In this document: piece after piece, positions 13,301 to 51,718 of the stretch
How positions within the stretch are numbered: position 1 is the first letter of the stretch
Layout: each line of letters starts with the position of its first letter
Origin: Clostridia bacterium
GTDB taxonomy: Bacteria; Bacillota; Clostridia; Oscillospirales; CAG-272
DNA length: 64,000 bases
Assembly: GCA_017621755.1 (NCBI GenBank)
Contig: JAGASL010000044.1
Coordinates: forward strand, 1 to 64,000
Reading direction: 5' to 3'
Program-made: the position numbers and the translations under genes
Notes under the pieces: model-generated
What the model was told of the DNA's origin: nothing
The model's input: the letters and a program-made list of their open reading frames with translations, nothing else
Databases searched by the model: none

Positions 13301-16300
13301 ATTTTGACCTGGGCCTATACCGTGCCCCACGGGGTTCGTGAACTGGCGCCTACGATCAGCGTGGCGAATATTACGCATAACGCGGCAAACTCTGTAGGCA
13401 CGCACCTGTGCATCCTTCGAAACGGTACACCGGTTTGGCCTGAAAATGCTGAGGCCGGAGACCCGACGACCTGGGCACGGCAGGGCAATGGCTTTGCGGG
13501 GAAGAACCCCACCGTTGCTGAGCTGACCACGGCTTGGGAGGATGTTACGTTTGAGGTCAAGGAGGGAGACCTGCTTACCTTCTGCGTGATAGATAATAAG
13601 GGTGACGTGCGCTATGGCTATCGCTTTGGTGTGACCGATACGGCAACCGGCGTGACCACCACCTATGATCCTGCGGCGGTAACGCATGGTGCTGCCCCGG
13701 TGACCTACAATACCTTCTGTGCAACGGATGTTGCCGTGCGCGGCGAGGACTCTGGCTACGTGATGGGCAGCTATGCCAAGGATGCATACGTTGAATATTA
13801 TATGGAGCAGGCAAGGATCACACAAACGGGTGACTGGTGCCTGGGCCAGCTGACCGATGCAAAGGCCTTCAGCCCGCTTGCCGGTCTGATCGCTATAAAC
13901 GGTAAAGCGGCTGGTGCCGGATATGCCGTGGGCGAGCAGCTGTATGCTACCACCGAGGCAGGTCTGCACAAGCTATTGGGCAAGTATTTGGCGGGAGAGA
14001 CGGTTGATCAGCTGGCCTTGACCGATGACGAGCTTTTCCTTCTCTCGCCTGGCGGTAAGCATGCCGGCTATGCCGTTAGCACCGCTGATAAGACCGTAAC
14101 CGCCTATCGCTATACCATGCCGCAGAATGGGCGTGTGCGCCTCTCGCTTGGCGAGCAGGTAGCAAGCGGCGCCTATGTGTGCGTGCTGCATAACGGAGAG
14201 GTGGTCTGGCCGAGTGGCGCATCCTACGGCGCGACCAACACCTGGGCAAGCGTAACAGCGGGCAGCCTTGTCTCGCTCAACGCATCGCTTGCCGACCTGG
14301 CGCCCTATTTCGAGGGGGGAGATACCGTTGATTTCTGTGTCGCCAATGCCGCGGCGCAGGCTGGGAGCTACGTGCTGCTTATGCCGCGGGTAGAAATCTT
14401 TAGCCCGCTTGCCGAGCTGTTTGAGCTGCAGGCTGCTGCCACGCTTGGTCAAAGCTTTGGCGCTATCTTCTATGCTACCTATCCCAGCATGGCGGTAGCA
14501 AACGATGCCGTTGTCACCTTTGCAAAGGATGGCGCGCCGGTTATCGCCATTACGCAGGATATCCAGAATGCAGACGGCACGCTAACGCGCTGCTACGTTC
14601 TTTCCGGCTTTGCCGCCAAGGAGCTGACGCGTGAGATCTCCTATTCCTTTACCTGCACGGCCAACGGGGAGGAGAAGAAGAGCGAGGGCACGGTAACCGT
14701 GGCCAGCCTGATCGCCGCGCACCTAAGGATGAACGGCGCACTGGTAGACACCACCGATGCAACCGCGGCGCTGGCAATGGCGACCCTAAATTATGCCGCC
14801 GCCGCGCAGACCTATTTTGAATACCATACCGATGCGCTTGCTAATGCGGCCGTACCGGAGGCACAGCGCACCTCGACCGTTCTGGTCAGCGAGCGTGAGA
14901 TTGCCGATATGGAATACCGTGTGACCGAGGGGGCCGGCCTGCACTTTATGCAGGCAAGCCTGCTTCTGAACGACGTCATTCAGCTGAAGCTGAGTCTGCA
15001 GGCAGAGAACCCCATTGCCGATTACAGCGCGCTTACGTTGGTGGCTAAAACCGAGGGTGGCAGCACTTACAGGGGCACACTTGAAACGCGCGAGGGAGAT
15101 ACCGACAAGACCCTCTTCAAGGCGGTTGTTGGTATTCCCATGCTACATTATGATACCGCGTTGACAATTGGCGTTTACCAGGGCGACGAGCTGGTAAGCG
15201 ACGAGATCGTTTATGGCGTTGGCTGCTATGCTAAGCGTGTCTATGGAGAAGACGAGATAATGGATGCTATTTTGAATACGATGCTGACCTTAGGCGATGC
15301 GGCTGAGGATTACCGCTATAGGGTAGAAAACACGCTTGAAAACGGTGCTGGTATTCCTGCCCTGCCCGGTGAGACGATTGACCTTTGGCAGTATCCTATA
15401 TGGGTACGTGATACCATTGTTCCCGGTGATCAGGTAACCTGGAGTGCCGCCTGTGACGCGCTGGCCTATTCGATCGTATCTAACCGCTACGTGCTGGCCC
15501 CTGAGGATGCGGGTGAATACGCGCTGGTGGCTACGTATGGCAATCACTCACTTGAGGTGGTGCTTTCTGTTGATGCGGCCGGCAATTACGGCGCAGGCGT
15601 GGTACAGAAGAACCCCTCTGCCTCGATCGATCTTTCTAGCTACGGTGCCAAGGCAGCCGAGGCTGGCGCCACGGTGCCCACCTATTGGGAATGGTCGCTG
15701 AATCTGGCTGCTTGCCTGGCTGATCAGAACAAGACAAAGGTGGAGAGCGAAGATAATCTTTCCTCCTTCCTTTTCGTTACCGATACGCACTGGGAGCAGA
15801 ATAACAGAAACACCTTCAAGCTGGCGAATTATCTGCAGGCCGAGCTGGGCTTTGATCGCTTGCATTTCGGTGGAGATATGATCGATGGTAACGCCCAGCT
15901 TTCCGTAGCGGCGGCAACCGTTGCCGATTGGGTAGCAAGCATTGATAGCTTCAACGGTAGGTGGTATCCCGTGCGTGGAAACCATGACCAGAATGCCTCT
16001 TGGCGCCCGCTTTCGTTTGACGAGGTGTGGACGGATGAGCAGTACTATGATAACGTGCTGGCCTATTCAGACATTCCAAAGACGGGCGAAAACGGCTACA
16101 GCGGCGAAAAGAACCTCTATTACTACGTGGATGATGAGCAGGCCAAGATCCGCTACTACTTCTTAGCCGATTATTCACACGGCAATACCGCCGTGGCCTC
16201 CGGTGATAAGAACACCTCGGAAAAGGAGGGCGTAAACGTTGTTCCCTATGAGGCACAGGTAGCCTGGCTGCAGGAGACAGCAGCAGATCTGGAAGCGGGC

Positions 16301-35931: not shown

Positions 35932-35972
35932 AAACAAGCCCCTTGGCCTTTTCGGCCAAGGGGCTTTTGTTT
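35932..35972. terminator. terminator between kinase and AraC transcript start
   Basis: AAACAAGCCCCTTGGCC and GGCCAAGGGGCTTTTGTTT flank TTTTC. It ends the minus-strand LytTR operon, directly after the kinase stop. Confidence 0.8.
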
Positions 35973-37242
35973 AGAAATTCAAATACAGCGTAAACACATT
36001 GTCTTGTGCAAGGAATTGGTAGTAGGCGTTGTTTTTATCACAGAAGGCCACGATAGAGCGTGTGCCAAAGCCGTGATCCTCGTTGTGGTTGATGGGGATA
36101 CCGGCATCGTCAAATTCTATCTCACCCCGGAAGCTGTTGCTCACCTTGATCATAAAGCTGGGGGTAGAGAGCACCTTGACCTCGATCCACTTCTCTTCAC
36201 CCACGGCCATCTTCTCGCAGGCGTTGATGGCGTTTTCCATGGCGTTGGCAAGCACGGTGGCCAGCTCGGTCGCATCTACAGGGATGGGATCTGGAAAATC
36301 GAAGCCAAAATCCACGCCGATCTCCTTGCTTTCCGCGTTTTGCAGATAGGTGGAAATAACGGCATCAATGATCACGCTTTTGCAATATCGCTTGATCTGC
36401 GTTTCGCGTAGCGCCTCATCGTACTGCGGCATCAGGGTGCGCAGCTCCTCGTATTGCTCCTTTTCCACCAGGTTAGAAATGATGCGCATCTTGTGGCGCA
36501 GGTTGTGGCGCTCTTGACGAAAGCGCTCATCGGCTGCGGCCAGCTCATCAACGCGGGCGGTCATATTATGCACCTGCAGGCGAAGAATGTTCTCCTGCTC
36601 CTGCACCTCATACATCTGGTGCTGGCGACGAAGCGTGGAGATGATGTTGCCATAGATGGTTGGTATCAGGATGAGCAGCAGCACCATGGCCGGCAGATAG
36701 ACAGGGCGCTCTGTGATGGCGGTGGGGGTATTCATCATCAGGGTCATCAGCACGTAGAAGATAGCGCCGATGGCGGCGTAGCTCCCCCAGCCCCTCGTGG
36801 TCTGCCTTTGCACCTCAAGAAACATTTTGCGCATGTGCTTGGCTATCAGCCACTCGATCAGCGGAAAAATCGTAAGCCGAACAAGAAACATGAGCAGGTT
36901 GCTGTTGGGGGAAATGTAGAAGTTCAGGATCTGCGTGATGTAAACAATCTCTAAAACCACCGTGTCCACCAGGCAGAAGGTAAAGAAGAAGCGGCCGTCT
37001 CTGTTTTTGGCAAGGATCCAGAATATGAGTAGGCTTGGCAGGGAAAGCGTAAGCAGCATGGCCGTTCCCATTTTATCGGCATCCATGTAAAAGGCAAGCA
37101 CGGTGTTGAGGGCGATCAGCGGTAGCATGGTAGCCAGCGTAATGATCAGCGTTTTCTTTTTAGAATAGCGCGCTTCAAAGAGGAGAAAGAATAGCACGAG
37201 CGTGTGAACCATCGACCATAAAAGAGATATTTCCCGTAGCAT
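35971..37242 (-). CDS. GHKL-type sensor histidine kinase (AgrC/VirS-like)
   Basis: 423 residues: six or seven hydrophobic helices in the first 200 residues, then a coiled region, a RHNLRHK box (the H box of this class), the N box (LATVLANAMENAINACEK) and the late HGFGTRSI glycine motif. GHKL kinases partner LytTR regulators and often sense peptides. The gene starts three bases after the stop of the LytTR regulator. No exporter of the AgrB type is near, so the signal is open. Confidence 0.85.
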   Translation of the reverse strand: MLREISLLWSMVHTLVLFFLLFEARYSKKKTLIITLATMLPLIALNTVLAFYMDADKMGTAMLLTLSLPSLLIFWILAKNRDGRFFFTFCLVDTVVLEIVYITQILNFYISPNSNLLMFLVRLTIFPLIEWLIAKHMRKMFLEVQRQTTRGWGSYAAIGAIFYVLMTLMMNTPTAITERPVYLPAMVLLLILIPTIYGNIISTLRRQHQMYEVQEQENILRLQVHNMTARVDELAAADERFRQERHNLRHKMRIISNLVEKEQYEELRTLMPQYDEALRETQIKRYCKSVIIDAVISTYLQNAESKEIGVDFGFDFPDPIPVDATELATVLANAMENAINACEKMAVGEEKWIEVKVLSTPSFMIKVSNSFRGEIEFDDAGIPINHNEDHGFGTRSIVAFCDKNNAYYQFLAQDNVFTLYLNF

Positions 37243-37244
37243 GA

Positions 37245-37988
37245 TTATTTCCTGCTGACCTCCTCAAACCAAAAGCTGTTCCATTCGGCGCGCATATCGC
37301 GGCACAGCTTTTTGCCAAGATATACCCGCGTTCCATTACGAAAGAGCAGGGAATCCGCCTCTATCGACCTCACGTGGTGAAGATTGACCAGCATGCCCGA
37401 GCCGCACAGCACAAAGCGGCGGTCGGTCAGCAGGTCTGCCATCGCCTCAGAAAAGGTGGTGCGCAGCGTGGTGCTTTCTACCGTTTTGCCACCCACCAGC
37501 TGGTAAACGATGGCGCGCTTTACCAGCTCGGCATACAAAAGGCTGTCATAGCCGATCGTGAGAGAGCTTTCCTTTGTTTTGATCAGAATGTTGCTGTGTC
37601 TTTCGTGAGAAACGATCTCATAGATCTCGTCAAGCAGCTTGAAAAGCGGCTCCCTTCCTACCGGCTTCATCATATAATGATAAGGCTTTACCTTAAAGGA
37701 ATCGATCGCGTATTCCTCGCTGGAGGTCAGGAAAACGATCTTACCCTCATGGCCGGCCTCGCGCAGCCGCATACCCAGCGCAATGCCGCTGATGTCATTT
37801 TGCAGCACGATGTCTAAAATATAGAGATCAAAGCCGCCGATCCTGGCAGAGGCATCAAGCACGTCGTCAGAATACTCAAAGGCGGTATAGGAGACGTTGT
37901 GGTCGGGGCGCTCGCTTGCGTAGGCGGCCAGCAGCTCTTCCAGCTGGCTGCGGCAAAGCGCATCGTCATCGCAGAACGCTATCTTCAT
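37245..37988 (-). CDS. LytTR-family response regulator
   Basis: 247 residues from ATG 37988 (GGAGGG seven bases upstream). Receiver domain with acidic CDDD at residues 6-9 and phospho-acceptor D59 (LYILDIVLQ). The C-terminal LytTR domain shows LLYAELVKRAIVYQL, FSEAMADLLTDRRF and LVNLHHVRSIEADS. It is divergent from the small gene at 38248 and the giant protein gene. Direct repeats of 21-bp period before that promoter are the expected target type. Confidence 0.88.
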   Translation of the reverse strand: MKIAFCDDDALCRSQLEELLAAYASERPDHNVSYTAFEYSDDVLDASARIGGFDLYILDIVLQNDISGIALGMRLREAGHEGKIVFLTSSEEYAIDSFKVKPYHYMMKPVGREPLFKLLDEIYEIVSHERHSNILIKTKESSLTIGYDSLLYAELVKRAIVYQLVGGKTVESTTLRTTFSEAMADLLTDRRFVLCGSGMLVNLHHVRSIEADSLLFRNGTRVYLGKKLCRDMRAEWNSFWFEEVSRK

Positions 37989-38008
37989 AAAAAACCCTCC
38001 CGGCATTT

Positions 38009-38037
38009 TGCATGTAGCATGCGGAATTCTGCATGTA
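38009..38037. promoter_or_regulatory. 8-bp direct repeat with 21-bp period in the LytTR regulator leader
   Basis: TGCATGTA occurs at 38009-38016 and 38030-38037. The pair lies just downstream of the minus-strand -10, where binding could repress the regulator's own transcript. The sequence is not obviously like the repeats at 38110. Confidence 0.35.
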
Positions 38038-38065
38038 TTCTACCATATTTTATTAAATTTGTCGA
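38037..38065 (-). promoter_or_regulatory. promoter of the LytTR regulator-kinase operon
   Basis: On the minus strand, TCGACA (38065-38060) and TAGAAT (38042-38037) with a 17-base spacer. Confidence 0.55.
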
Positions 38066-38109
38066 GCCCTTTTTCAAAATTCCACCTATTGCCCTCTGTG
38101 GTTTTTTGG

Positions 38110-38144
38110 CCGAAATATGCGCAAAAATGACCGAAATATGCGCA
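38110..38144 (+). promoter_or_regulatory. 14-bp direct repeat with 21-bp period, candidate LytTR operator
   Basis: CCGAAATATGCGCA occurs at 38110-38123 and 38131-38144. LytTR regulators bind paired direct repeats two helical turns apart, next to promoters with poor -35 boxes. A -10 TATGAT follows at 38172-38177, and the -35 position (38149-38154, CACACA) is unlike the consensus. The repeat ends four bases before it. Confidence 0.6.
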
Positions 38145-38247
38145 CCCCCACACAAGCATAGAGCTTTTTGCTATGATATGACCACGGTAAAATTTACAAA
38201 AAATCCGGGAAAGGAGCGTGGCGGCCCTGCAGGTCGCCTAAAAAAGG

Positions 38248-38616
38248 ATGACGCATAGAACCCAAGAAAGTGAGCTGCTTCGCCACGTAAAAATCGCCGT
38301 GTGCGGCGAGCTGCCTACTGCCTGTGAATACCTGAAAAAGCTGGGCATTATACAGATCGACCAATACACCGATGCGGTCAACATCGGGCGAAAGTCTGAT
38401 TACCACCTGATCTTAGTGTACGCGCCACAGGGCGAGGGCTTGTTTGATACCTACTGTGTATCAAGGGGCGACGAGACAGCCGGCGTGCCGGGCACGCCCA
38501 TCCGGCTGCTGAACGAGCCGTGCTGCCATTCAGCCCTGCTGGAGATCGATATGAAGATCCGCCGCATAGCGAGATCGCTCCTTCCCGCCGGCGAGGAGAC
38601 AGCTATGCACGGGTAA
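38248..38616 (+). CDS. small protein of unknown function in the LytTR-controlled unit
   Basis: 122 residues; I do not recognise a family. It is an alpha/beta-looking protein (HVKIAVCGELPTACEYLKKL, DYHLILVYAP) with Cys pairs at CC in NEPCCHSAL. There is no signal peptide or membrane helix. The ribosome site is poor (AAAAAAGG touches the ATG). A GTG with AAAGGAG at 38218 opens a seven-codon frame that stops at 38239, in frame with this gene, and may be a leader. The gene is first behind the tandem operator and 80 bases before the giant protein gene, so it may work with it. Confidence 0.55.
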   Translation: MTHRTQESELLRHVKIAVCGELPTACEYLKKLGIIQIDQYTDAVNIGRKSDYHLILVYAPQGEGLFDTYCVSRGDETAGVPGTPIRLLNEPCCHSALLEIDMKIRRIARSLLPAGEETAMHG

Positions 38617-38696
38617 GCCGCGGCGAAGGCGCTATCGCGCACATAGAGACAAGTATATAAACGATTTACGTATAACGATAAGGGAGGCCTTTACAA

Positions 38697-41600
38697 ATGA
38701 CAACAACAAGAACGAAAAAGATCGCGCTGGTATGCGCTATTCTGGCACTTGCCCTGCTTTCTGGCTTGGGCATCATGCAGCTGCAGGCCAACGCGGCCGA
38801 GCCGACATACGTAGCGCGAGACGCGGTCCTGCATGCGGATTGGGAGCAGGAATACCACGCCGTGCAGTTTGACCCGTATGAGGAATGGGCAGACAAATAT
38901 TACCTGCACGTATACGATGACGGGGGCGAGCACGTTGCTGCCCTTACGATGGTAGATGCCGAGGGCGATGGCGTTTACGCTGCCTTTGTTCCCGAGGTGT
39001 ACAGCACCTATATGATCAGTGACCACCAGGTGCCGGAAAGCTCTACCAAAAAGACCGTGATGCTGGAAAAGCTGGAAAAGCCGCGCAATGCGTCAGACGG
39101 CGACCCTGTCAACACCTACACGACCTTTAACGACCAGATGGCAGACGCGAGCACCTATGAGGCCCTTACCAAAATGCATAGCCTGGTGTGGAACGATGCG
39201 AATGACAATAAACGCATCGATGCAGGCGAAAGCAGATATACGGATCTGAACGATGCATTCAACGTTGCACCGTCCGGTGCCAAGCTTTGCTTAGCCGGCT
39301 CGCAGGTGGATACTGCCACCCTGAAATGGGGCAAGGGCATCGCGTTAGACCTGCGCGGTTATACGGTAGAGGCGCCTTATAATAATAACACGGCCTTTAT
39401 TTTAGTTACGGATAGCTCTACGCTTACCATTACTGATAGTATTGGCACCGGCCGTATTGACGCCGGCGCAAGCGCCGTTGCATCTACGGTTGAGGCCCAA
39501 GACGGTTCTTATATATTGTTAGATGACGGTCACTATACGCCGGCAGTAGCCTTTATGTTCTACACTGACGAGGGAAGTAGGATCGACGTAACGCCCGGCG
39601 TGAGCGCCAGCGTAAAGCCGCAAGATGGGTCTTACCGCCATACGAATGAGACTGTAGGCCTCTTTCTCCATTTTGTAGAGGATGAGCACGGCTACTGGGT
39701 AGCAAAGCGGTTTGAAACTACCGAGGCTGCCGCTATCTTTGACGCAAACAACAGTGGGCATTTTGAGGATGGCGAGGTTGCCTACTACACGCTGGGCGCT
39801 GCGGTAGATGTCGCATCCCGCGCAGGCGGCGGCCGCGTGATACTGGTTAATGACGTAACCCTGGATACGTGGGTCTCCTTCCTTTCAAACGTGGAAGGCG
39901 CGGAATTCATCTTAGACCTGAATGGCAGGAGCATTACGGCAAGCCGTGACTTTACAGGCTACGGGATGATCTCTGTTAGTGGCGCCAAGCTGACCGTAGA
40001 GACAACGGGTAGCACAACCGGAAATATCATCGATGCCTCTGCGAAAAGCGGTCTTAATCTTTTCGACGTGGCAAACGGCGAGCTGGTGATCGATAGCTAT
40101 GCGGTCAAGCTGCTTGCCCATGCGAATATGGATAGCCCAATCTACGTGAATGATAGATCCACCGCCAGCCTGATGACGTGCCAGACCAGCTTTGACCCCT
40201 ACTATCTCCTGCCCCCGAACTACACGGCAGAAAAGAACGAGGTAGGGCTGTTTGAGATCCACTCTGTAGTAAATATGGTTGCCTATACCGATCTGAACGA
40301 AAACGGCAGCTTTGACGTGGGTGAATATCGCTTTGGCGACCTCTCTCACGCGATAGCCTACGGCGGTACCGTGGTACTGACGAATGACGTGACGTATGTC
40401 AACACCACCGCAAGCGTACCGTACGAGCAGCAGGTGGGCTATTACACCCGCCTGGATCTGAATGGGCATACTGTTACGGTGGCAGAGGGCTCTGTGCTTC
40501 ACCTGCTGGGCAATGGCAACGTGATCTATGATAGCAGCGCGCTAAAGACCGGCGTGCTGGATGCCAGCCGCTCTGCCTATATCCTGTCGGATAGCGACGG
40601 CACGCTGAGCGATACCAGCATTGAGGGCGGTACCTTTTACCGCGGTGCGGCACTGTTTGAAATGGCGCCCGGTGAATACGTTACGATCGTCAGCGGTTAC
40701 TTTGACTTTGACCCGACCGGCTATCTGTCTGAGGAAAGTGAAGCTACTTATGATCAGGCAAGCGGCCTGTGGGAGGCCTACATGAGCTTTGAGGCGTGGG
40801 CCGATACGGACGGGGACGGCGTGTTGGATGATGGCGAGGTGACCTACGAAAAGCTGACTGATGCCATTGCATCCGGCGCCTCCTACATCACGTTAGCAAG
40901 CGACGTAGAGGATCTGTATGACCGCATTGTGCTGGAGGCAGGCACTCGTACCATCAATTTTAACGGCTATACGATCTATACCCGTAGCGGCCTTTCCGTG
41001 CTGTTCGAGCTGAACGGCTATGCCGAGCTGACCCTGACCACCACGCGTGGCGGCGGCATACAGACGCCACACAGCCTTGCCTGGGCCAACGACAATGCCA
41101 AGCTGATCATTGTAGACGGTGATTATACCGGCCGCCCCTACGAGCATGATAATGGCTCGGTAACCATTCAGGGCGGTACCTTTGACGACAACTATTATTG
41201 GCTTTTGGATGACGGTCTGGCCTATCAGCAGGTAGACGGCCAATACGTGGTAGTGAAGGATGCGGCTGCGCTGTTTACCCCCACCGTTACCGGCACCTAT
41301 TCCTATAACGGCCAGGCGCAGGTTCCTACCCTGGTAGTAACCGATGAAAACGGTAACGTTCTGGTAGCCAACGTTGATTATACCGTTACCGCTACCAACA
41401 ACGTGCTGGCCGGCACCGCCACCGCCACCGTTACCTATACGATGGAGGGGTACGGCGGTAGCGAGACCGTAGCATTTACCATTGACAAGCGTGCGGTAAC
41501 CATTACCCCCGTAGATGCAAGCGTTGCCGATAACGGCGAGTTTACCGGCACCACCCTGGCGGCAAACGGCCTGGTAGAGGGCCATACCGTAAGCGGCACC

Positions 41601-44600
41601 TTTGACACGATCGATATTACGCAGAGCGACCGCTTTATCATCACCCCGGCCACCGTTACCATTCTGGATGCCGAGGACAATGACGTAACGGCCAGCTACG
41701 AGATCGAAAAGAAGAGCGGCACCCTGACCGTGGAGCACGGTGCGGCTGCTGAAAACGGCATTTATAGCTGCTGTGGTGCCTACGCCATGCCTACGCTAGC
41801 CGAGGATGGCTATTACGAGCTGGCAAACGAGGGCAACCTCTTCTGGTTTGCTTCCCACGTTAACGCCGGCCATAAAACGGCAAATGCCCGCCTTGTGTCT
41901 GATATTGATCTCAACGATCGCACCTGGACGGTCATTGCGCCGACAGCTTTCTATAACACTGCTTACGGCACTGATCTTGGCTATGCCGGCACCTTTGACG
42001 GCTGCGGCTATGAGATCCGCAACTTGGCGCTTATGAGCCCGCTATTGAAGGGAACCTCTGTCGGTCTCTTCGGCACCGTTAGCGGCACCATCAAGAATCT
42101 CGGCATCAACGGCGTTCGCATTGCCACGCCTGCTATTGCTCCGGATTTCTGTGTCGGTGCCATCGTCGGCCAGCTGATCAAGACGGGTCTTGTGACCGAT
42201 TGCTACGTGATCAATGCGGTGATCGACCTTGATGATTACGTGGTCGGCGGCATTGCCGGCTGCGTATACGAGGGCACCGTGCAGAACTGCCTGGTGCTAA
42301 GCTCTACCATCACCGGCGGGGCCAACCGCTTTGGTCTCATCGCGGGTGACACCAGAGGAATCGAGAACACCGGCGATCGCCCCGGCAGTCTGATCAACTG
42401 CTATGCCGACGGCACCACGCTGTACGGCACGCAGTACGCCGGCACGAGCGAAGGGTGCGCCACCATCACGGCCGAGCAGGCCGCCTCCGGCGCGCTGGCC
42501 GTGATGCTGGGCGCCGATGTATGGGGCCAGCAGCTGGGTACCGATGCGTATCCTGTACTGGGCGGCATGCGGGTCTATCGCACCATTCCCTGCGAGGTCG
42601 GCTTCAGCAACACCGCCAATACGGTAAAAGAGCACAGCTATACTTACGATTGCGATACCATCTGTATCGATTGCAAGCAGGTTGGCCGTACCGATACCAC
42701 GCACAGCTATGACGATGCTTGCGACGCCAGCTGTAACAGCTGTGGCGAAATACGCACCGATATTCACGTCTTTGATCACAATTGTGACACGCAATGTAAT
42801 CTTTGCGGCTACAACCGCACCATTACCCACGTGCTGGATGGCGCGGCCTGTACGGCCTGCGGCCATACCATCACCTATATCGAATACGTGTGGAGCAGCG
42901 CCGACAAGAAGCTGACCTCCACCGAAAAGACCCCCACCACCTTTACCGTGGTAAGCGACAGCCTGACCGCGCTTTCGGCCGGATGGTACGTGGTGAATGG
43001 GGATGTGACCATCAACGCCCGCCTGACCGTTACGGGTGAGGTGCATCTCATTCTGATGGACGGTAGCCGCCTGACCGTAAACGGCGGTATCCGCCTGACG
43101 GGTGAGGGCAATTCGCTTACCGTATACGGAGAAGAAAATAGCTCCGGCATGCTGGTGGCGGCCGCCACCACCGATTATCAGGCCGGCATCGGCGGTAATC
43201 GGCAAGAAAGCGGCGGCACGCTGACCGTGCACGGCGGCACCCTGACCGCTACCGGCAAGAAGGATGCAGCCGGCATTGGCGGCGCCTACGGCTTAAGCAG
43301 CGGCCCCCTGGCCAACGGTGGCAGCTTTACCCTGTACGGCGGCAGTGTTACCGCTACGGGCGGCCGCTACGGTGCAGGTGTTGGCGGCGGCTTCTACGGC
43401 AACGGTGGTACCGTGACCGTGTACGGTGGCACGCTGACGGCTACGTCCGGCAGCTCTATATCTTCCGGCATCGGCGCGGGCTACGAGGGCTCTGCCGGTA
43501 CGGTACGCATTTACGGTGGCACGGTATACGCCACCGGCTATAATACGGGCATCGGCACCAGCTCTAGGTATGAGGGTGAAGAGAGCCTGATCGAGATCCA
43601 CGGCGGCACCGTGGTTGCCAAGAGCACAGAGACCGGCGCCGGTATCGGCTTGGGCTATAAAAGCCACGGTGCCACGATTCTGATCACCGGCGGTCACGTA
43701 ACCGCTACCGGTTCTGATTATGCAGCCGGTATCGGCAGCGGCGGCGGCAATGAAGCCGACAATTATCAGATCACCATTACGGGTGGCACGGTGGTCGCCA
43801 CGGGCGGTAGCTCTCCCCGCGGCGGCGGTGCCGGCATTGGCGGCGGCACAGATAGCATCGGCACGGGTAAGATCTTTATCTCGGGCGGCAACGTTACCGC
43901 AACCGGTGGCTATATCACCAACGGTACCACCGGCTACGGCGGCGCCGGCATCGGCGGTGGCGCGAACGGCACCGGTGGCCTGATCGTGATCACCGGCGGC
44001 GTGATCAATGCCACACCCGGCCGCCCGGATGCTGAGGCGATCGGCAACGGCAGAGCCGGCCTGGGCTACGCCTACTTTACCACCACCACCGGCATCATTA
44101 CGGGCACGCATACCTTTGATAAGGACTTTACCATCGAGCCGGGCGTTACCTTAACGATACCGGATAACGCTACCCTGGCGGTAGCCGAGGGCGTGACCCT
44201 CTACAACAACGGCGCAGCAATCGTTCACGGCCTTGTGGTCAATAACGGTACGATCATCTGTGCAGAAGGCTCGCATGCCCTCGTTAGCGCGTGTGATGCT
44301 ACCTGTCGCCTGTGCGGCGGGGCAAACGAAAACGCAGCGGCGCACAGCTATGCGCACGCCTGCTCGACGATCTGCACGGCCTGCGGCTATCAGCGTGCCG
44401 AGGCTGAGGCGGCACACGGCTATGCAAACGGCATCTGCTCCGCCTGCGGCGAATTCCAGCCTGCCGTGTTAGATGAGGATAGTGCAAGCGCTACCTACGG
44501 CTACTACAAGATCAATAGCCTTGGTCAGCTGCTTTGGTTCCGCGACTACGTCAACAGCGGCAATCCTACTGTCAATGCCGTGCTCACCGTATCGGTTGAT

Positions 44601-46385
44601 ATGGCAAGCATGGAATTTACCCCCATCGGTACCGACCTGTATCCGTATGCCGGTATCTTTGACGGCGCCGGATACACCATCAGCGGGCTGAAGCTGAATG
44701 CCGCGCAGGACAACATGGGCTTCTTCCGCTACCTGGATGGCGGTGCGGTGAAGAACCTGACCCTGAAGGGCGAGCTTACCGTATCTGCTAACGTGCAATA
44801 CGTTGGCGGTATCGTAGGCTATATAACCAGCGATGCGGCGCTTGAAAACTGCCACTCGTACGTGAACATCACGCTCACGGCCGATGCGGCAGGCAGTAAG
44901 TATATTGGCGGTGTGGCCGGTTATCTTTACGATGGTAATAGCATCACGGTCAACACCTGCACCTATCACGGCAATCTGCAAGCAAGCTGTGTGGCAGATT
45001 ACGTTGGCGGCGTCGTTGGCTATGCACAGCAAGAGGTTGTATTCTACAACTGTGCCAATTACGGCACGGTATACGCGCCGCAGGCAACGTACGCTGGCGG
45101 TATGGTATCGTATGCCACGGGCTACTTTGGTGGTCTGGTTAACTGCCTTGGTGTCGGAGACGTGACTGCTGCGCGCTATGCCGGCAGATTGGTCGGTTAT
45201 TCCTCTGCTTTCAACGTCACCTATCAGAATAACTATTATCTGGCAGGGCAGAAGGGGCACGGCCATACGGTCTACAGCAATACGATCAACGAATCCAATT
45301 TCATCTTAGTGACCGAGAAGCAGCTTGCAAGCGGCGAGGTCGCCTACCTGCTTGGCGCTGCCTGGGGGCAGACCATCGGTACGGAGAACCGTCCCGTTCT
45401 CGGCGGCGCAACCGTTTACCGCGCCGAAAATACCAGCTGCCAGGGCACCGGCCACGGCACCTATTCCTACGGCAACAGCGAGCCGGTTGCCATTCAGACC
45501 GGCCTGCACGCCTATGACGCATACGGCGCCTGCACGCTGTGCGACGTGGCCTATACCGCCATCACGGTACAGGGCGGCATCGCGCTGGGCGGCACCTTCG
45601 GCATCGACTATTACCCGGCAGCCGATGAAAACGCTACCGAGGCAGGCGTGACCTACAACGGCAAGGATTACCCCGCCGCTGATGGCTTTGCCAGCATTAC
45701 CGGCATTGCGGCCAAGAACCTGGGCGACAGCCTGACGGTGACCCCGTACCAGATCATTGATGGCGTGCGCTACGTCGGTCAGGACGTAACGGTATCGGCC
45801 GCCGAGCTGCTGATGGCCTACGTAAACGGCGAGTATGCCGATACGGTCAAGGCGATCGCCATTGCCTCGCTCAACTACGGCGCATCCGCACAGGTCTACT
45901 TCGGCTACCAGACCGATAGCCTGGTCAACGCATCCCTGAGTAACGAGCAAAAGCAGGTTACCCACGGCACAGGCTACGAAACGGCAGCCCTGACCCAGTT
46001 AGAGGGTACCCCCACGGCAGACCTGCTGGGTGTGACGCTGCTGCTCAACGATCGCATCAATTTCAAGCTGCTCGTTTCCTCCTCCGTAGAGGGCGCCCAG
46101 CTGGAGATTGCTGATAACGAGGGCTTTACCGGCGCCACGAGGATCGACTTTGCCGCTACTGAGGATGGGGCAAATCTGAAGGCGATCGTAGCCGGCATCG
46201 CGCCCGCCAGCTGGAACACCTCGTTCTACTTCCGCGTGGTAGATGCAGATGGAAATGCCATCTCGCACACGCTGCGCTACAGCGTAGCGGCCTACTGCCA
46301 GAACAAGGCAGAGGATGCAGAGGTTGGCCCCGTGGCAAGCGCCATTCTTGCCCTGTATGATGCAGCGGCAGCCTATACGGCATAA
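38697..46385 (+). CDS. giant secreted protein: Ca-loop repeats, beta-helix, GLUG and CxxC arrays, shared C-terminal module
   Basis: 2562 residues; GGGAGG precedes the ATG. Signal peptide (TRTKKIALVCAILALALL, cut near ANAAEP). Four units of about 180 residues begin with EF-hand/dockerin-like loops (DANDNKRIDAGE, DANNSGHFEDGE, DLNENGSFDVGE, DTDGDGVLDDGE, from 39190, 39739, 40285 and 40800). They lead into beta-helix-type strands, an MBG-like domain (41270-41740), GLUG-type repeats (41800-42560 and 44460-45400) and two CxxC arrays (42630-42880, 44290-44450). A glycine-rich beta-helix (43000-44130, many GAGIGGG turns) lies between them. The end (45560-46382) is the shared module with ASLNYGASAQVYFGY. 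No cell-wall sorting motif. Probably a secreted adhesin under LytTR control. Confidence 0.82.
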   Translation: MTTTRTKKIALVCAILALALLSGLGIMQLQANAAEPTYVARDAVLHADWEQEYHAVQFDPYEEWADKYYLHVYDDGGEHVAALTMVDAEGDGVYAAFVPEVYSTYMISDHQVPESSTKKTVMLEKLEKPRNASDGDPVNTYTTFNDQMADASTYEALTKMHSLVWNDANDNKRIDAGESRYTDLNDAFNVAPSGAKLCLAGSQVDTATLKWGKGIALDLRGYTVEAPYNNNTAFILVTDSSTLTITDSIGTGRIDAGASAVASTVEAQDGSYILLDDGHYTPAVAFMFYTDEGSRIDVTPGVSASVKPQDGSYRHTNETVGLFLHFVEDEHGYWVAKRFETTEAAAIFDANNSGHFEDGEVAYYTLGAAVDVASRAGGGRVILVNDVTLDTWVSFLSNVEGAEFILDLNGRSITASRDFTGYGMISVSGAKLTVETTGSTTGNIIDASAKSGLNLFDVANGELVIDSYAVKLLAHANMDSPIYVNDRSTASLMTCQTSFDPYYLLPPNYTAEKNEVGLFEIHSVVNMVAYTDLNENGSFDVGEYRFGDLSHAIAYGGTVVLTNDVTYVNTTASVPYEQQVGYYTRLDLNGHTVTVAEGSVLHLLGNGNVIYDSSALKTGVLDASRSAYILSDSDGTLSDTSIEGGTFYRGAALFEMAPGEYVTIVSGYFDFDPTGYLSEESEATYDQASGLWEAYMSFEAWADTDGDGVLDDGEVTYEKLTDAIASGASYITLASDVEDLYDRIVLEAGTRTINFNGYTIYTRSGLSVLFELNGYAELTLTTTRGGGIQTPHSLAWANDNAKLIIVDGDYTGRPYEHDNGSVTIQGGTFDDNYYWLLDDGLAYQQVDGQYVVVKDAAALFTPTVTGTYSYNGQAQVPTLVVTDENGNVLVANVDYTVTATNNVLAGTATATVTYTMEGYGGSETVAFTIDKRAVTITPVDASVADNGEFTGTTLAANGLVEGHTVSGTFDTIDITQSDRFIITPATVTILDAEDNDVTASYEIEKKSGTLTVEHGAAAENGIYSCCGAYAMPTLAEDGYYELANEGNLFWFASHVNAGHKTANARLVSDIDLNDRTWTVIAPTAFYNTAYGTDLGYAGTFDGCGYEIRNLALMSPLLKGTSVGLFGTVSGTIKNLGINGVRIATPAIAPDFCVGAIVGQLIKTGLVTDCYVINAVIDLDDYVVGGIAGCVYEGTVQNCLVLSSTITGGANRFGLIAGDTRGIENTGDRPGSLINCYADGTTLYGTQYAGTSEGCATITAEQAASGALAVMLGADVWGQQLGTDAYPVLGGMRVYRTIPCEVGFSNTANTVKEHSYTYDCDTICIDCKQVGRTDTTHSYDDACDASCNSCGEIRTDIHVFDHNCDTQCNLCGYNRTITHVLDGAACTACGHTITYIEYVWSSADKKLTSTEKTPTTFTVVSDSLTALSAGWYVVNGDVTINARLTVTGEVHLILMDGSRLTVNGGIRLTGEGNSLTVYGEENSSGMLVAAATTDYQAGIGGNRQESGGTLTVHGGTLTATGKKDAAGIGGAYGLSSGPLANGGSFTLYGGSVTATGGRYGAGVGGGFYGNGGTVTVYGGTLTATSGSSISSGIGAGYEGSAGTVRIYGGTVYATGYNTGIGTSSRYEGEESLIEIHGGTVVAKSTETGAGIGLGYKSHGATILITGGHVTATGSDYAAGIGSGGGNEADNYQITITGGTVVATGGSSPRGGGAGIGGGTDSIGTGKIFISGGNVTATGGYITNGTTGYGGAGIGGGANGTGGLIVITGGVINATPGRPDAEAIGNGRAGLGYAYFTTTTGIITGTHTFDKDFTIEPGVTLTIPDNATLAVAEGVTLYNNGAAIVHGLVVNNGTIICAEGSHALVSACDATCRLCGGANENAAAHSYAHACSTICTACGYQRAEAEAAHGYANGICSACGEFQPAVLDEDSASATYGYYKINSLGQLLWFRDYVNSGNPTVNAVLTVSVDMASMEFTPIGTDLYPYAGIFDGAGYTISGLKLNAAQDNMGFFRYLDGGAVKNLTLKGELTVSANVQYVGGIVGYITSDAALENCHSYVNITLTADAAGSKYIGGVAGYLYDGNSITVNTCTYHGNLQASCVADYVGGVVGYAQQEVVFYNCANYGTVYAPQATYAGGMVSYATGYFGGLVNCLGVGDVTAARYAGRLVGYSSAFNVTYQNNYYLAGQKGHGHTVYSNTINESNFILVTEKQLASGEVAYLLGAAWGQTIGTENRPVLGGATVYRAENTSCQGTGHGTYSYGNSEPVAIQTGLHAYDAYGACTLCDVAYTAITVQGGIALGGTFGIDYYPAADENATEAGVTYNGKDYPAADGFASITGIAAKNLGDSLTVTPYQIIDGVRYVGQDVTVSAAELLMAYVNGEYADTVKAIAIASLNYGASAQVYFGYQTDSLVNASLSNEQKQVTHGTGYETAALTQLEGTPTADLLGVTLLLNDRINFKLLVSSSVEGAQLEIADNEGFTGATRIDFAATEDGANLKAIVAGIAPASWNTSFYFRVVDADGNAISHTLRYSVAAYCQNKAEDAEVGPVASAILALYDAAAAYTA

Positions 46386-46398
46386 GGAGGAAATGAGT

Positions 46399-46524
46399 AT
46401 GAAGAAATATGAAGCACCAAGCTGGAGCGTTTTGGTTCTCACCACAGACCTGCTGATGACCACCAACGAAAACGAGCTGGAATACGATGATATTTCCTCT
46501 ATCCTGAACATTTTTGATATGTAA
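46399..46524 (+). CDS. small peptide, MK(K/Q)YE family
   Basis: 41 residues starting MKKYEAPSWSVLVLTTDLL and ending in an acidic, hydrophobic tail (YDDISSILNIFDM). AAGGAGG at 46384-46390 overlaps the giant's stop codon and is eight bases before the chosen ATG; ATG 46393 is too close. It shares MK-[KQ]-YE-x-P, DL-[ML]-T and NE with the peptide at 16674. Both are the last genes of units led by giant secreted proteins. Function unknown. Confidence 0.7.
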   Translation: MKKYEAPSWSVLVLTTDLLMTTNENELEYDDISSILNIFDM

Positions 46525-46530
46525 AGGGGT

Positions 46531-46566
46531 CCCCCTTCACCATCTGGTGAAGGGGGATTTTTTTGC
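46531..46566 (+). terminator. terminator after the second giant unit
   Basis: CCCCCTTCACC and GGTGAAGGGGG with an ATCT loop, followed by ATTTTTTTG. Confidence 0.85.
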
Positions 46567-46633: not shown

Positions 46634-46662
46634 TTGACAACTAAATAAAATAGAAGTATAAT
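46634..46662 (+). promoter_or_regulatory. consensus promoter of the third giant gene
   Basis: TTGACA (46634-46639) and TATAAT (46657-46662), both perfect, with a 17-base spacer: the strongest promoter match in the window. The gene may be constitutively and highly transcribed. Confidence 0.8.
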
Positions 46663-46708
46663 GACAATGGAGTTTTATCAAAATCCCCCATTTTTAAGGA
46701 GAATGCGT

Positions 46709-49700
46709 ATGAAAAAGCGAATTCTTAGTCTCATGTTGATTTGCGCGATGCTGCTGACCGCCATTCCCATGGCCGTGCTGCCCGTTGCCGCAGTGGAAGC
46801 AGACACGTTTACCCCCACGACGCGCTTCGTGCTGGTTTCCGACATTCACGTGGACAAGGGCTCCGGTGCTAACGCCGGTGTCAACGTGGACCATATGATG
46901 GACCGCGTATACGCCTATCTGGCCGAAAAGGCCGAAAAGAATGACAATCTGTTGCCCTCTGCCATCATATCGATGGGTGATAGCCTCAATGATGGCTACC
47001 CCGAGGAGGCAGATTATCTGGCAGCGCGCTTTAACAAGGCTAAGGCCGGCTATCTTGAAAAATACGGCAAGGAGCTGCCCATCTACGCGATCATGGGTAA
47101 CCATGAGTATAACAACGGCTATTACTATGATGTGAACATAAACAGCGCCAATAAGGCATTTTTCGAGTACGTGCCGTTATCCGAATGCGCGTCTAATGAC
47201 GAATACGTGCTGCGGAATACCGCCGCTTTCCGCGATGCCTATATCGATAAGCTGTGGGGCACCGCTGCCTCTGCCGAGGGGGCTTCCACCGGTAACGTAG
47301 GCGCGATCGATAACAACACAACAGACTGGCACTACGTGATCAACGGCGTGCACTTTATCGGCATTTCCATCAGCAATCATCTCGGCAATCTGTCGACAGA
47401 GACGATGCAATGGCTGGATGACGAGCTTGCAAAGGCGACGGCAGATACGCCGGACGCGCCCATCTTCCTGTTCAGCCACCACCCGCTGCGGGATACCCTG
47501 CATTCTACCGTATACACCCCCGGTGGCAAGCCGGGCTGGGCAAACTATATGCCCGACAATACAGACTGGGGGCTTTCCTATCACAACGAGACCCACACCC
47601 TGTTTACCAATATTATTAAAAAGTACCCGAACGTGATCTTCAGCACCGGCCATACCCATGCACCCGGCAACGCGCCCCTTGGCATTTGGCAGGGCGAGGA
47701 TGAGAATGGCAATGGCACCGGCTTTACCGCTTACTGTCCCGGCGGCCTGGTAAGCAGCTGTGACTTCGCCATCATTGAGATTGATGCGAAGAATACCGTT
47801 CGCTTCTACCCGCAGCACGTAAATGGCGCCTACACCAACCCCGATGGTAGCACGCTGTATTACGAGATCTCTTATAACGATGACGGCACCCACTCCTACG
47901 GCTATAACGAGACTGCTCGCACCGCCGTGAAGCCCGAGTTCGCCGCTGACCAAACCGCTACCTTCTCTGATATGTGGGCAAGCGACGGCAAGGTGACCGG
48001 CATGCTCTCCTTTGGCCAGGCGGTAAGCGGCACCGTGTACCCCTACACCTATGAGATCGCTTTCGTTCCGCAGGGCGAGGGTACTACCATCTACGCAACG
48101 GCATCCTCGAACGCCTTTGCAAGAAGCTTGAATATCCCGACCATGGTTCACAGCGGCGACTTTGAGCTGGAGGAAGGCCGGGTCTACGACGTGCACGTCA
48201 CCCCGCTCAATTACTGGGGTGGCAGGGGCGAGACCAAGGTGCTGCTTGCTGATCTAAAAACGCCATCCTCGGAGCTGAAGGAGACGGATAGCAGCTACAC
48301 CTCCCTCTATACGCATCCTACCTCCGGCACGGGTGTGAACGACCACACCTATTCGCTTGAGGATGGTACCGTTACCTTTGCCCCGGCATGGAGCGTAGGG
48401 GCTTACAGCTTTGATAACGGAGGTGTCTACCCCTACTCCTACGCGAACAAGCCCGAAAAAGAGGCACATGGTTATTCCTCGCTTTCCACCGGCCTTTCCT
48501 GGCAATACGGTGGTATGTACCTTGATGCACAGAGTGAAACGATCATCGCCGGTCATAATAAAGACAGCACGCATATGGCCACCTACGTGACCTATACCGC
48601 TGAAAAGAGCGGCACGCTGAATCTGACGATTGATAATATGAATTTCCATCGTGTTTCCACGGCCTATGCGTTGGTGAAGAATTATTCTACCGTTATTTCG
48701 GCAAATAATGTGCCCTTTGTAAACTGGGATGTGACTGCTGAAGAAAATCCTAACTGGACGCTGATCGGTGATTCTAAGCTCATTCAGAACAAGACCTACG
48801 AGAATATTGAGGTCAAGAAAGGTGACACCATCTCCTTTGTCTTCTCCCGCGGCTCGGTGGATGACGGTTGGGGCATCTATAATGTGAAGATGCACGTAGA
48901 CTATACCAAGGAAAAAGAGACGGTCAACTACGTTTACGAAAGCGCCTTTGTTCAGAAGCCCGGTACCGAGACCTATCCCACGATCGATTACGATACCCTC
49001 ATCAAGGATGGTACCTACCCCCACTATGCCCTGGTTCAGCACCCCGCCTGGGAGCTTGGCTGTTATTATTTCGGCACCACCACAGCAAGCGTGAACAACG
49101 GCCGCAACCCGTATAACGTCTACACCTCTCAGTATAAGCTGATTACGAGAAACGGCATTGATATGTGGGGCTACGGCGGCGGCTACTTCAACAGCAATTT
49201 CACAATTCCCAGCCAGAACAACTATGTAACCTATATTGCCTACGTAGCAGAAAAGGACGGCGTGCTTGGCCTGGAGGTCACCGACCTGAAGTTCAAGTAT
49301 GCCAACACGGCCTACGCCATTGTCAAGAACTTCAGCGAGGTGCTGACCACCGATGAGGTCGTTCCCTTTGTAAACTGGACGAGCGACACCCGGGAAAACT
49401 GGGAATATTCCCAGGCGGTTGGCACCAGCACCAAATTCGGCGTGACCAAGGTCAGCGTCAAGAAGGGCGATACGATCGCCATCGTCTTTGACCGTGCCGA
49501 GCTAAAGAATGGTGACGGCTTCTACGATCTGAATATGACGGTGAAATACCGCAAGGAATACGTAGGCGATGCCATTACCTATGAGCATAAGACGAATGGC
49601 AAAAACTTCCCGGTTACCGGCAGAGATGCGGGCGGCTTCCCCATCCTTGCAACAGGCGAGCTTGATTATGAAATGGGCACGTATAATTTTGCCAACAGCA

Positions 49701-51718
49701 CCGCCTATCCGTACGGAACAAGCACGGATATATACGGCATTATCGCCTCGAAAGCGCTGGGCGGCTGCTGGAGCTACGGTGGTATGTACTACAATGGACA
49801 AATGGTCGTGCCGGCGGCAGACAGCTATATCTCCTATATCGCCTACACGGCCGACTGTGACGGTAAGCTGGATATTAGCATCAGCAACCTGACCTTCCAG
49901 CGCGAGGGAACTGCCTTTACGGTGGTAAGAAACTTTAAGGATGTGCTGCTGGCGAATGGTGGCACCTTGGCCAACTACACCACAACGGATACGGCAGATT
50001 ATTGGTATCATTCCGTTCTTGGCCAGACCTATTCCTTCACGATTCGCGACGTGGAGGTGAAGATGGGCGATACGGTTGCCATCGTATTCGATAACGGCCT
50101 TTCGCAGACCACGGGCTACAACAGCACCACCAAAGAAAATCAGCGCGGCCCGAAATCCATGAACATTGATATGCAGTACAGCGAGCGCTACGCCTCTATC
50201 TACACAAGCGCAGCGGTCGATAGCCTGGCTCAGATCAAGAATAGTACGGCTGCAACCGTTGATTGGTCAAGCAGTGTCTGGACACCGGTTGTATACAAGG
50301 ATCGTAACGATGCCGGCTCCATCGATAAGGCTTTGGTCATGGATACCTTCTATCCCTCTGGCAATGCCTACGTTCCTTCCTCTGTTTACGTGGCGGGCAA
50401 TAACGCAGCGACTGAAAAATACGCTATGCTTACCACCGGCAAGCAAGCGGAATGGGGCATTACTGGTGGTATGGTCGTGACCAACGGTTCCGCCGCCGGC
50501 TTCCGCTATATTGCGGAAGAGAGCGGTAACGTACGCTTTGCCTTTGATAGGGCTGGTTCTCAGTCCTCCGTTGCGGCCGCAGATGAGACGGTGATGGGCT
50601 ATGCCATCTTTGTCAACGGTGTCAAGGTTTGGCCGCATGGCGATAACAACTGGTATGGCCTGCGTCAGCACAGCCGCGTTGTGGACTACACCGCAGAGCT
50701 GAATGCCGCTATGCCCAAGGCGTTGTTCGTCAGCGAGGGTGACTGCATTGAAATTTTGGCCCGTAATGAAACAACAGGAAGATACTCCTGGACCAACCGC
50801 GGTAATGTTTTCCTGCCGAAGGTGACCTATGATAGCGAGGCCATGGTCTCGGCCGTGCTGAATGATAAGTTTGCCATTACCCTGTACCCCGCCGGCGAGC
50901 TGGCCGATGGGCAGAGCGCCACGCTGAACGGTGAGAGCGTAACGCCTACGCTTGAAAGCGACGGCGGCTACACCATCGATGGCATTGCCGCCAAGGAGAT
51001 GGGTGACACCATCGTTTGGAAGTACGCCTACGCCGATACCGCCTTTGCGCGCGGCGATAGAACCGTTACCGTTCCCCACGTGGCACAGCAGTGGCAGGGC
51101 AGCTATGCTGACCTGATGAAGGCGTATATTGATGCATACGCTACGGACACCAGCGACCTTGGCGTGGCCATTACAGATTTGGCGGTGGCTACCCTCAACT
51201 ACGGTGCGGCCGCACAGACCTACTTTGGCTACAAGACGGATAGCCTGGTCAACGCCGTCCTGAGCGACGAGCAAAAGACAGTTACCCACGGCACAAGCTA
51301 TGAGACGGCCGCTATGACCCAGCTGGACGGCACGCCCACAGCCGAGCTGCTGGGCGCTACGCTCCTGCTGAACGATCGCATCAACATCAAGCTGCTCGTT
51401 TCCTCTTCGGTAGAGGGCGCCCGCCTGCAGGTCGCAGACAACGCGGACTTTACCGGCACCGGCGTGAGCACGATCGATTTCGTTGCCGAAAACGAGACAA
51501 CGCTGAAGGCGATCATGGACGGCCTGGCACCCGCGATCTGGAACACCTCGTTCTACTTCCGCGTGGTGGATGCGGATGGGAATGCCATCTCGCACACGCT
51601 GCGTTATAGCGTAGCAGCTTATTGCCAGAACATGCTCAACAAACAGGATGAGAAGGTTACCCCCGTGGCAAATGCCATTCTCGCCCTGTATGACGCAGTA
51701 GCTGCCTACATGGCTTAA
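46709..51718 (+). CDS. giant secreted metallophosphatase with tandem repeats and shared C-terminal module
   Basis: 1669 residues from ATG 46709 (AAGGAG seven bases upstream; ATG 46703 is too close). Signal peptide KKRILSLMLICAMLLTAIPM. A calcineurin-like phosphatase domain comes first (residues about 35-330: VLVSDIHVD, SMGDSLND, MGNHEYNN, FSHHPLRD, STGHTHAPG), then a fibronectin-like linker. Three modules of about 210 residues follow (48270-48920, 48930-49560, 49570-50190; each with QYGGMYxxxxx, YxxYTAExxGxLxL, TAYALVKNxS and VKKGDTIxxVF). A fourth, partial one comes before the shared module (50847-51715; ATLNYGAAAQTYFGY). Its last 450 bases are very like those of the preceding giant at DNA level. 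No small peptide gene follows. Confidence 0.83.
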   Translation: MKKRILSLMLICAMLLTAIPMAVLPVAAVEADTFTPTTRFVLVSDIHVDKGSGANAGVNVDHMMDRVYAYLAEKAEKNDNLLPSAIISMGDSLNDGYPEEADYLAARFNKAKAGYLEKYGKELPIYAIMGNHEYNNGYYYDVNINSANKAFFEYVPLSECASNDEYVLRNTAAFRDAYIDKLWGTAASAEGASTGNVGAIDNNTTDWHYVINGVHFIGISISNHLGNLSTETMQWLDDELAKATADTPDAPIFLFSHHPLRDTLHSTVYTPGGKPGWANYMPDNTDWGLSYHNETHTLFTNIIKKYPNVIFSTGHTHAPGNAPLGIWQGEDENGNGTGFTAYCPGGLVSSCDFAIIEIDAKNTVRFYPQHVNGAYTNPDGSTLYYEISYNDDGTHSYGYNETARTAVKPEFAADQTATFSDMWASDGKVTGMLSFGQAVSGTVYPYTYEIAFVPQGEGTTIYATASSNAFARSLNIPTMVHSGDFELEEGRVYDVHVTPLNYWGGRGETKVLLADLKTPSSELKETDSSYTSLYTHPTSGTGVNDHTYSLEDGTVTFAPAWSVGAYSFDNGGVYPYSYANKPEKEAHGYSSLSTGLSWQYGGMYLDAQSETIIAGHNKDSTHMATYVTYTAEKSGTLNLTIDNMNFHRVSTAYALVKNYSTVISANNVPFVNWDVTAEENPNWTLIGDSKLIQNKTYENIEVKKGDTISFVFSRGSVDDGWGIYNVKMHVDYTKEKETVNYVYESAFVQKPGTETYPTIDYDTLIKDGTYPHYALVQHPAWELGCYYFGTTTASVNNGRNPYNVYTSQYKLITRNGIDMWGYGGGYFNSNFTIPSQNNYVTYIAYVAEKDGVLGLEVTDLKFKYANTAYAIVKNFSEVLTTDEVVPFVNWTSDTRENWEYSQAVGTSTKFGVTKVSVKKGDTIAIVFDRAELKNGDGFYDLNMTVKYRKEYVGDAITYEHKTNGKNFPVTGRDAGGFPILATGELDYEMGTYNFANSTAYPYGTSTDIYGIIASKALGGCWSYGGMYYNGQMVVPAADSYISYIAYTADCDGKLDISISNLTFQREGTAFTVVRNFKDVLLANGGTLANYTTTDTADYWYHSVLGQTYSFTIRDVEVKMGDTVAIVFDNGLSQTTGYNSTTKENQRGPKSMNIDMQYSERYASIYTSAAVDSLAQIKNSTAATVDWSSSVWTPVVYKDRNDAGSIDKALVMDTFYPSGNAYVPSSVYVAGNNAATEKYAMLTTGKQAEWGITGGMVVTNGSAAGFRYIAEESGNVRFAFDRAGSQSSVAAADETVMGYAIFVNGVKVWPHGDNNWYGLRQHSRVVDYTAELNAAMPKALFVSEGDCIEILARNETTGRYSWTNRGNVFLPKVTYDSEAMVSAVLNDKFAITLYPAGELADGQSATLNGESVTPTLESDGGYTIDGIAAKEMGDTIVWKYAYADTAFARGDRTVTVPHVAQQWQGSYADLMKAYIDAYATDTSDLGVAITDLAVATLNYGAAAQTYFGYKTDSLVNAVLSDEQKTVTHGTSYETAAMTQLDGTPTAELLGATLLLNDRINIKLLVSSSVEGARLQVADNADFTGTGVSTIDFVAENETTLKAIMDGLAPAIWNTSFYFRVVDADGNAISHTLRYSVAAYCQNMLNKQDEKVTPVANAILALYDAVAAYMA

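Follow-up and report, generated by a model that had tools for sequence, protein, structure and literature searches.

A 14-bp direct repeat is a probable LytTR operator at the promoter of a giant secreted protein operon in a Clostridia bacterium

What is a 14-bp sequence, repeated exactly 21 bp further on, doing in the space between two divergent sets of genes? The question is raised by a contig of a Clostridia bacterium (GenBank assembly GCA_017621755.1, contig JAGASL010000044.1, positions 1 to 64,000; this whole 64,000-nucleotide stretch is referred to here as the window), in which genes for a LytTR response regulator and a sensor kinase lie on the minus strand on one side of the repeat, while a small gene, a gene for a 2562-residue secreted protein and a peptide gene follow on the plus strand on the other (Table 1). 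The initial annotation, made from the letters of the DNA, had proposed that the regulator acts at this repeat. Our comparison of the locus with its relatives leads to the conclusion that the repeat pair is very probably the operator of the divergent LytTR regulator, placed at an activator-dependent promoter of one operon.

Table 1 Features of the divergent LytTR locus, with positions in the window
Feature	Position	Strand	Basis or comment
Distal half-site CCGAAATATGCGCA	38110..38123	+	Direct sequence, genome word search, footprint matrix
Proximal half-site CCGAAATATGCGCA	38131..38144	+	Starts 21 bp after the distal half-site
Extended -10 TGCTATGAT of target promoter, without -35	38169..38177	+	Most relatives have TGnTATAAT at 26-27 bp
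Small gene, 122 aa, first gene of the operon; suggested receiver-like fold without phospho-acceptor	38248..38616	+	Conserved in ~14 relatives
Giant secreted protein, 2562 aa, beta-helix repeats; predicted main target	38697..46385	+	Translation, domain search
Peptide gene, 43 aa (or 41 aa), last in the operon; one of 8 genome paralogues	46393..46524	+	Paralogue search
Strong intrinsic terminator closing the operon	46521..46566	+	Sequence
Response regulator, receiver and LytTR domains; presumed binder of the repeats	37245..38006	-	Pfam domains, homologues
Sensor kinase, ~7 hydrophobic segments and GHKL ATPase domain; partner of the regulator	35971..37242	-	Pfam GHKL, 44.8 bits
Candidate sigma-70 promoter of the regulator/kinase operon, TCGACA-17-TAGAAT	38037..38065	-	Sequence boxes

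The repeat was verified to the base, and the initial annotation, which had reported 14 bp at an exact 21-bp period, proved accurate in its description of the element throughout. When mismatches are allowed, the repeat extends to 17 bp (TGrCCGAAATATGCGCA, 38107-38123 and 38128-38144), with the same start-to-start distance of 21 bp. A sequence this short might be suspected of being a functionless coincidence, but the CCGAAATATGCGCA pair is the sole identical run of at least 14 bases at a period of 15-60 in the window, and a first-order Markov simulation (60 sequences of 64 kb) produced no identical run of at least 14 bases at a period of 20-22, which puts the expected number of such runs per 64 kb far below one. 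Moreover, a search of the 2.38-Mb genome for CCGAAATATGCGCA with up to one mismatch returned exactly two matches, both in the repeat pair. Chance is thus scarcely credible as an explanation, and is already refuted by the conservation of the element across genera described below.

The promoter downstream of the repeats indicates how they might work. Its TATGAT hexamer (38172-38177) is preceded by TG and is separated from the second repeat by 27 bp. The hexamer at the -35 position, 17 bp further upstream (CACACA, 38149-38154), fits TTGACA at only three of six bases, and for this reason we regard the promoter as lacking a real -35. Since the second half-site ends four bases before that position, the repeats overlap neither the -35 nor the -10, in agreement with the earlier reading of the sequence as a repeat ending just before a TATGAT promoter without a -35 box. 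The locus therefore combines a two-component regulator with receiver and LytTR domains, a direct-repeat pair with a period of ~21 bp, and a weak, extended -10 promoter whose -35 position begins 4 bp beyond the repeats, features expected of a LytTR-activated promoter. An Rfam search of 37900-38800 found no RNA element.

This geometry also bears on the possibility that the regulator, once bound to the repeats, acts mainly as a repressor, or controls the minus-strand operon that encodes it. In favour of this, the element is flanked by divergent promoters, the LytTR protein CoxC is a repressor where its repeats overlap a -35 (PMC11347149), and in some relatives the repeats are near the regulator start, inside the likely 5' region of the regulator transcript. 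In the window, however, the repeats leave both promoter boxes free and occupy the position seen at activated LytTR promoters, and the promoter of the regulator lies ~45 bp beyond them with near-consensus boxes of its own, so that repression or autoregulation is an unlikely account of their main function.

For the comparison, 40 loci of regulator relatives were extracted as a first set. In the closest relatives, the genes for the regulator and kinase again point away from one that encodes a protein of 2000-3000 residues and, at loci like that of the window, the paired element is followed by a small gene and a gene for a large secreted protein. The half-sites of the relatives have the consensus nCAAATTTTGCGCA with a period of 21, and the pair is followed after 26-27 bp by TGnTATAAT, without a -35. 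In an alignment of promoters from 15 relatives, conservation was concentrated in both half-sites and the -10; nearly all window-like promoters have the extended -10 with TG at a gap of 26-27 bp, and the -35 never exceeds three of six matches. With a leave-one-out matrix, this site outranked every other in its locus in the window and in most relatives above ~34% identity; across 1.5 Mb strand-bases the top score outside the sites was 26.9 and the next 20.4. The proposal that this is the geometry of a LytTR-activated promoter is accordingly supported by a paired element whose fixed period and fixed distance to the -10 recur beside related LytTR regulators in many genera.

The matrix was then fixed and applied to a second collection, 80 named loci that come for the most part from Clostridia of the ruminant and chicken gut, gathered with an alignment query (a single-protein query had matched nothing). 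In 38 of the 65 loci that did not overlap with the training set, no site in the locus scored higher than the pair, which lay on the expected strand at most 300 bp upstream of the regulator; ~0.08 such loci would be expected. Pairs scoring slightly below threshold were present at three further loci (L172, L179 and L180), and another (L187) has a clear but diverged pair, CAAATACGTGCA, with a period of 20. An adjacent open reading frame of at least 500 aa was found at 27 of the 49 motif-bearing loci versus 4 of the 21 without the motif, and 25 of these 27 large reading frames have a signal-like N-terminus as judged by a crude pattern.

For genome-wide scans we used R1, a sequence-only profile of the promoters trained on 15 loci, the window included. 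Of 394 genomes scanned in the order, 20 had a motif match at E<=1e-5, and each of these carries a regulator relative; the drawn genomes without such a relative had no comparable site. The sequence of the element, its geometry, its conservation and its co-occurrence with the regulator are direct observations. They bear on the idea that the repeats are the operator of some other DNA-binding protein, with the LytTR gene a neighbour by chance. The consensus of the repeats does differ from the classical AgrA/ComE 9-mer. Set beside the published 9-bp LytTR consensus, the half-sites have a consensus of their own (nCAAATTTTGCGCA), with published sites varying widely. Against another binder, the motif lies beside regulator relatives across many families with otherwise different neighbours, is absent from genomes that lack such a relative, and has the LytTR spacing of 20-21; we therefore consider such a binder very improbable.

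Several observations weigh against the assignment of the repeats to this regulator as an activator site. The half-sites of the window deviate from the consensus in the AT core, and for this reason its matrix score is among the lower ones. A few relatives have a period of 20. At the locus of the closest regulator relative (L166, 59% identical), the kinase is kept but the motif and an adjoining giant gene are both absent, and several other relatives above 39% identity were without the motif in the scan. Finally, the co-occurrence in 20 genomes is to some extent circular, since R1 had been trained on 15 of the sites.

Within the source genome, the R1 scan returned one strong site, that of the window (40.8 bits, E 5e-10, with the window in the training set). 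The second-best site (C54:11772, 17.6 bits) adjoins the 3' end of a sigma-factor gene that points at it and was judged a chance match, and all others scored 14 bits and below. The scan proposed by the initial annotation hence yields a single predicted target comprising the small gene, the 2562-residue protein, the 43-residue peptide and the terminator, which agrees with the regulon it had suggested, and the switch appears to be dedicated to one operon in this genome. Multi-gene regulons do occur, since another genome (G155) has three further motif sites directly upstream of secreted-protein genes. As a separate observation, one locus (L159, G070:C1:768000-787000) has a strong motif of 47 bits near 14060-14133, flanked by the genes for a 2581-aa secreted protein and a GHKL kinase; the locus seems to have no LytTR gene, which might have decayed or been replaced.

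The presumed binder is, as had been noted, a LytTR regulator encoded across from the repeat, with both Pfam domains above cut-off (Response_reg 38.7 bits, cut-off 30.2; LytTR 23.9 bits, cut-off 22.6) and a likely start at 37988 (MKIAFCDDD). The segment that reads RFFRCHNSFVVN in AgrA (PDB 3bs1) is RFxLCGASxxxN or similar in motif-bearing relatives, with a three-residue insertion before it, and the predicted DNA-contact segment of this clade is CGSG/CGxS as opposed to CHNS in AgrA; for this comparison, the part of AgrA checked against PDB entries was the segment around RFFRCHNSFVVN. Distant regulator relatives with an H-R-S type segment were without the motif. From their sequences, the CGxS regulators would fit a LytTR clade with its own DNA specificity. 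Relatives at 30-50% identity occur in other families of the order, while the genus-mates of the source genome have no close relative, which suggests that the regulator may have been acquired from elsewhere.

The arrangement can be compared with several known systems. In VirR/VirS of Clostridium perfringens, the VirR boxes are a pair of imperfect direct repeats that adjoin the upstream side of the -35, and neither is dispensable (PMC2838878); the locus studied here shares the placement of the repeats and a secreted-protein gene that would be positively regulated, but has a different half-site, one giant-protein operon as its target, the first gene of which is receiver-like, and no toxin link. 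SilA recognizes 10-bp repeats with an 11-bp spacer, the spacing of which tolerates no change (PMC2766830), and dimeric AgrA binds repeats upstream of P2 and P3 (PMC4227749). Like SilA/SilB and AgrA/AgrC, with repeats of 9-10 bp and 11-12 bp between them, the present system pairs a kinase with a LytTR regulator and has direct repeats with a period of 21; unlike them, it has a 14-bp half-site, CGSG/CGxS in place of the CHNS of AgrA, and no identified peptide-maturation gene. An Agr quorum-sensing system was ruled out because AgrB (PF04647) had no match in the genome, which is 96% complete. In LytTR Regulatory Systems (LRS), the distance from the repeats to the -35 downstream of them is 4-11 bp, and some promoters have an extended -10 (PMC6193735); both of these features are found here. 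Since the LRS regulator pairs with a membrane inhibitor, whereas the regulator here has a receiver and a GHKL kinase as its partner, the locus is not an LRS. The operators of RcoM and CoxC consist of TTCNNGCA repeats (PMC11347149), which are likewise about two helix turns apart and resemble the TTC-TGCGCA of the half-sites in relatives, but these systems use three repeats and heme or MHYT one-component sensors without a kinase. A literature search found no paper describing the module.

From the observed layout we infer binding, activation, a phosphorelay, a signal and roles for all operon products, in the following order. The membrane GHKL kinase would sense a signal and phosphorylate the LytTR regulator, a dimer of which would bind both half-sites on one face of the DNA, the sites being two helix turns apart. 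Bound just upstream of the -35 position, the regulator would recruit RNA polymerase to the extended -10 promoter that lacks a -35, thereby switching on one operon, from the receiver-like small protein through the 2562-residue secreted protein to the short peptide, up to the terminator.

The small gene at the head of this operon had no family in Pfam, NCBIfam or PDB sequence searches. Convincing homologues (43-52% identity) were found only beside this regulatory system, directly after the repeat promoter in a dozen loci and a few kb downstream in others (G155, L174/L175); the named loci were fetched via the regulator, and it is the genome-wide searches that test this link without bias. The predicted fold is alpha/beta (pLDDT 80.9), and its top structural matches are mostly receivers, with a best Z of 6.9, where a Z below 8 can reflect a common arrangement; the best Foldseek match is AmiR (E 0.005). 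These models are suggestive of a receiver fold. The protein has no acidic pair after strand 1 (AVCGEL) and no Asp after strand 3 (LILVYAP), NEP replaces KP, and two cysteines are invariant. Pseudo-receivers are defined by the loss of one or more conserved phosphorylation residues (PMC12632262), and the small protein lacks such residues. We speculate that it has a feedback role, and the presence of a receiver-like first gene suggests a feedback element built into the operon. Upstream of the small gene, positions 38218-38241 contain a possible leader mini-ORF (GTG GCG GCC CTG CAG GTC GCC TAA) with an AAAGGAG of its own, and the start of the small gene itself has nearly no spacing from its ribosome-binding site.

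The arrangement is shared by dozens of gut Clostridia. It offers a testable predicted operator, with its regulon, for LytTR systems of a type that is common in ruminant and other gut Clostridia but apparently uncharacterised, and ties them to giant secreted proteins. Its conserved 14-bp half-site and CGxS segment also provide a case for studying how LytTR domains change their DNA specificity. More tentatively, these loci may represent a widespread undescribed gut-Clostridia module, in which a GHKL/LytTR pair with altered DNA-contact residues would read a paired 14-bp element of its own and serve giant secreted proteins exclusively; the first gene product of the operon, receiver-like but aspartate-less, would give feedback by binding to the kinase or the regulator.

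At its 3' end, the operon most likely stops at the peptide, because the strong terminator is followed by a separate promoter for the next gene, a perfect TTGACA-17-TATAAT at 46634-46662. This gene, which encodes a 1685-residue phosphoesterase (46661-51718), was therefore rejected as an operon member. The 43-aa peptide has no family match and no tie to the LytTR motif. It is one of at least eight paralogues in the genome, with the pattern M(K/R)KY..P....DLLM.(S/T)(D)EN.., and those with readable surroundings lie immediately 3' of a gene for a large secreted protein, often just before a hairpin. The 2562-residue and 1685-residue secreted proteins have a closely similar C-terminal region of ~150-200 residues, which resembles the ends of other secreted proteins on contig C13 and may be an anchoring or export domain.
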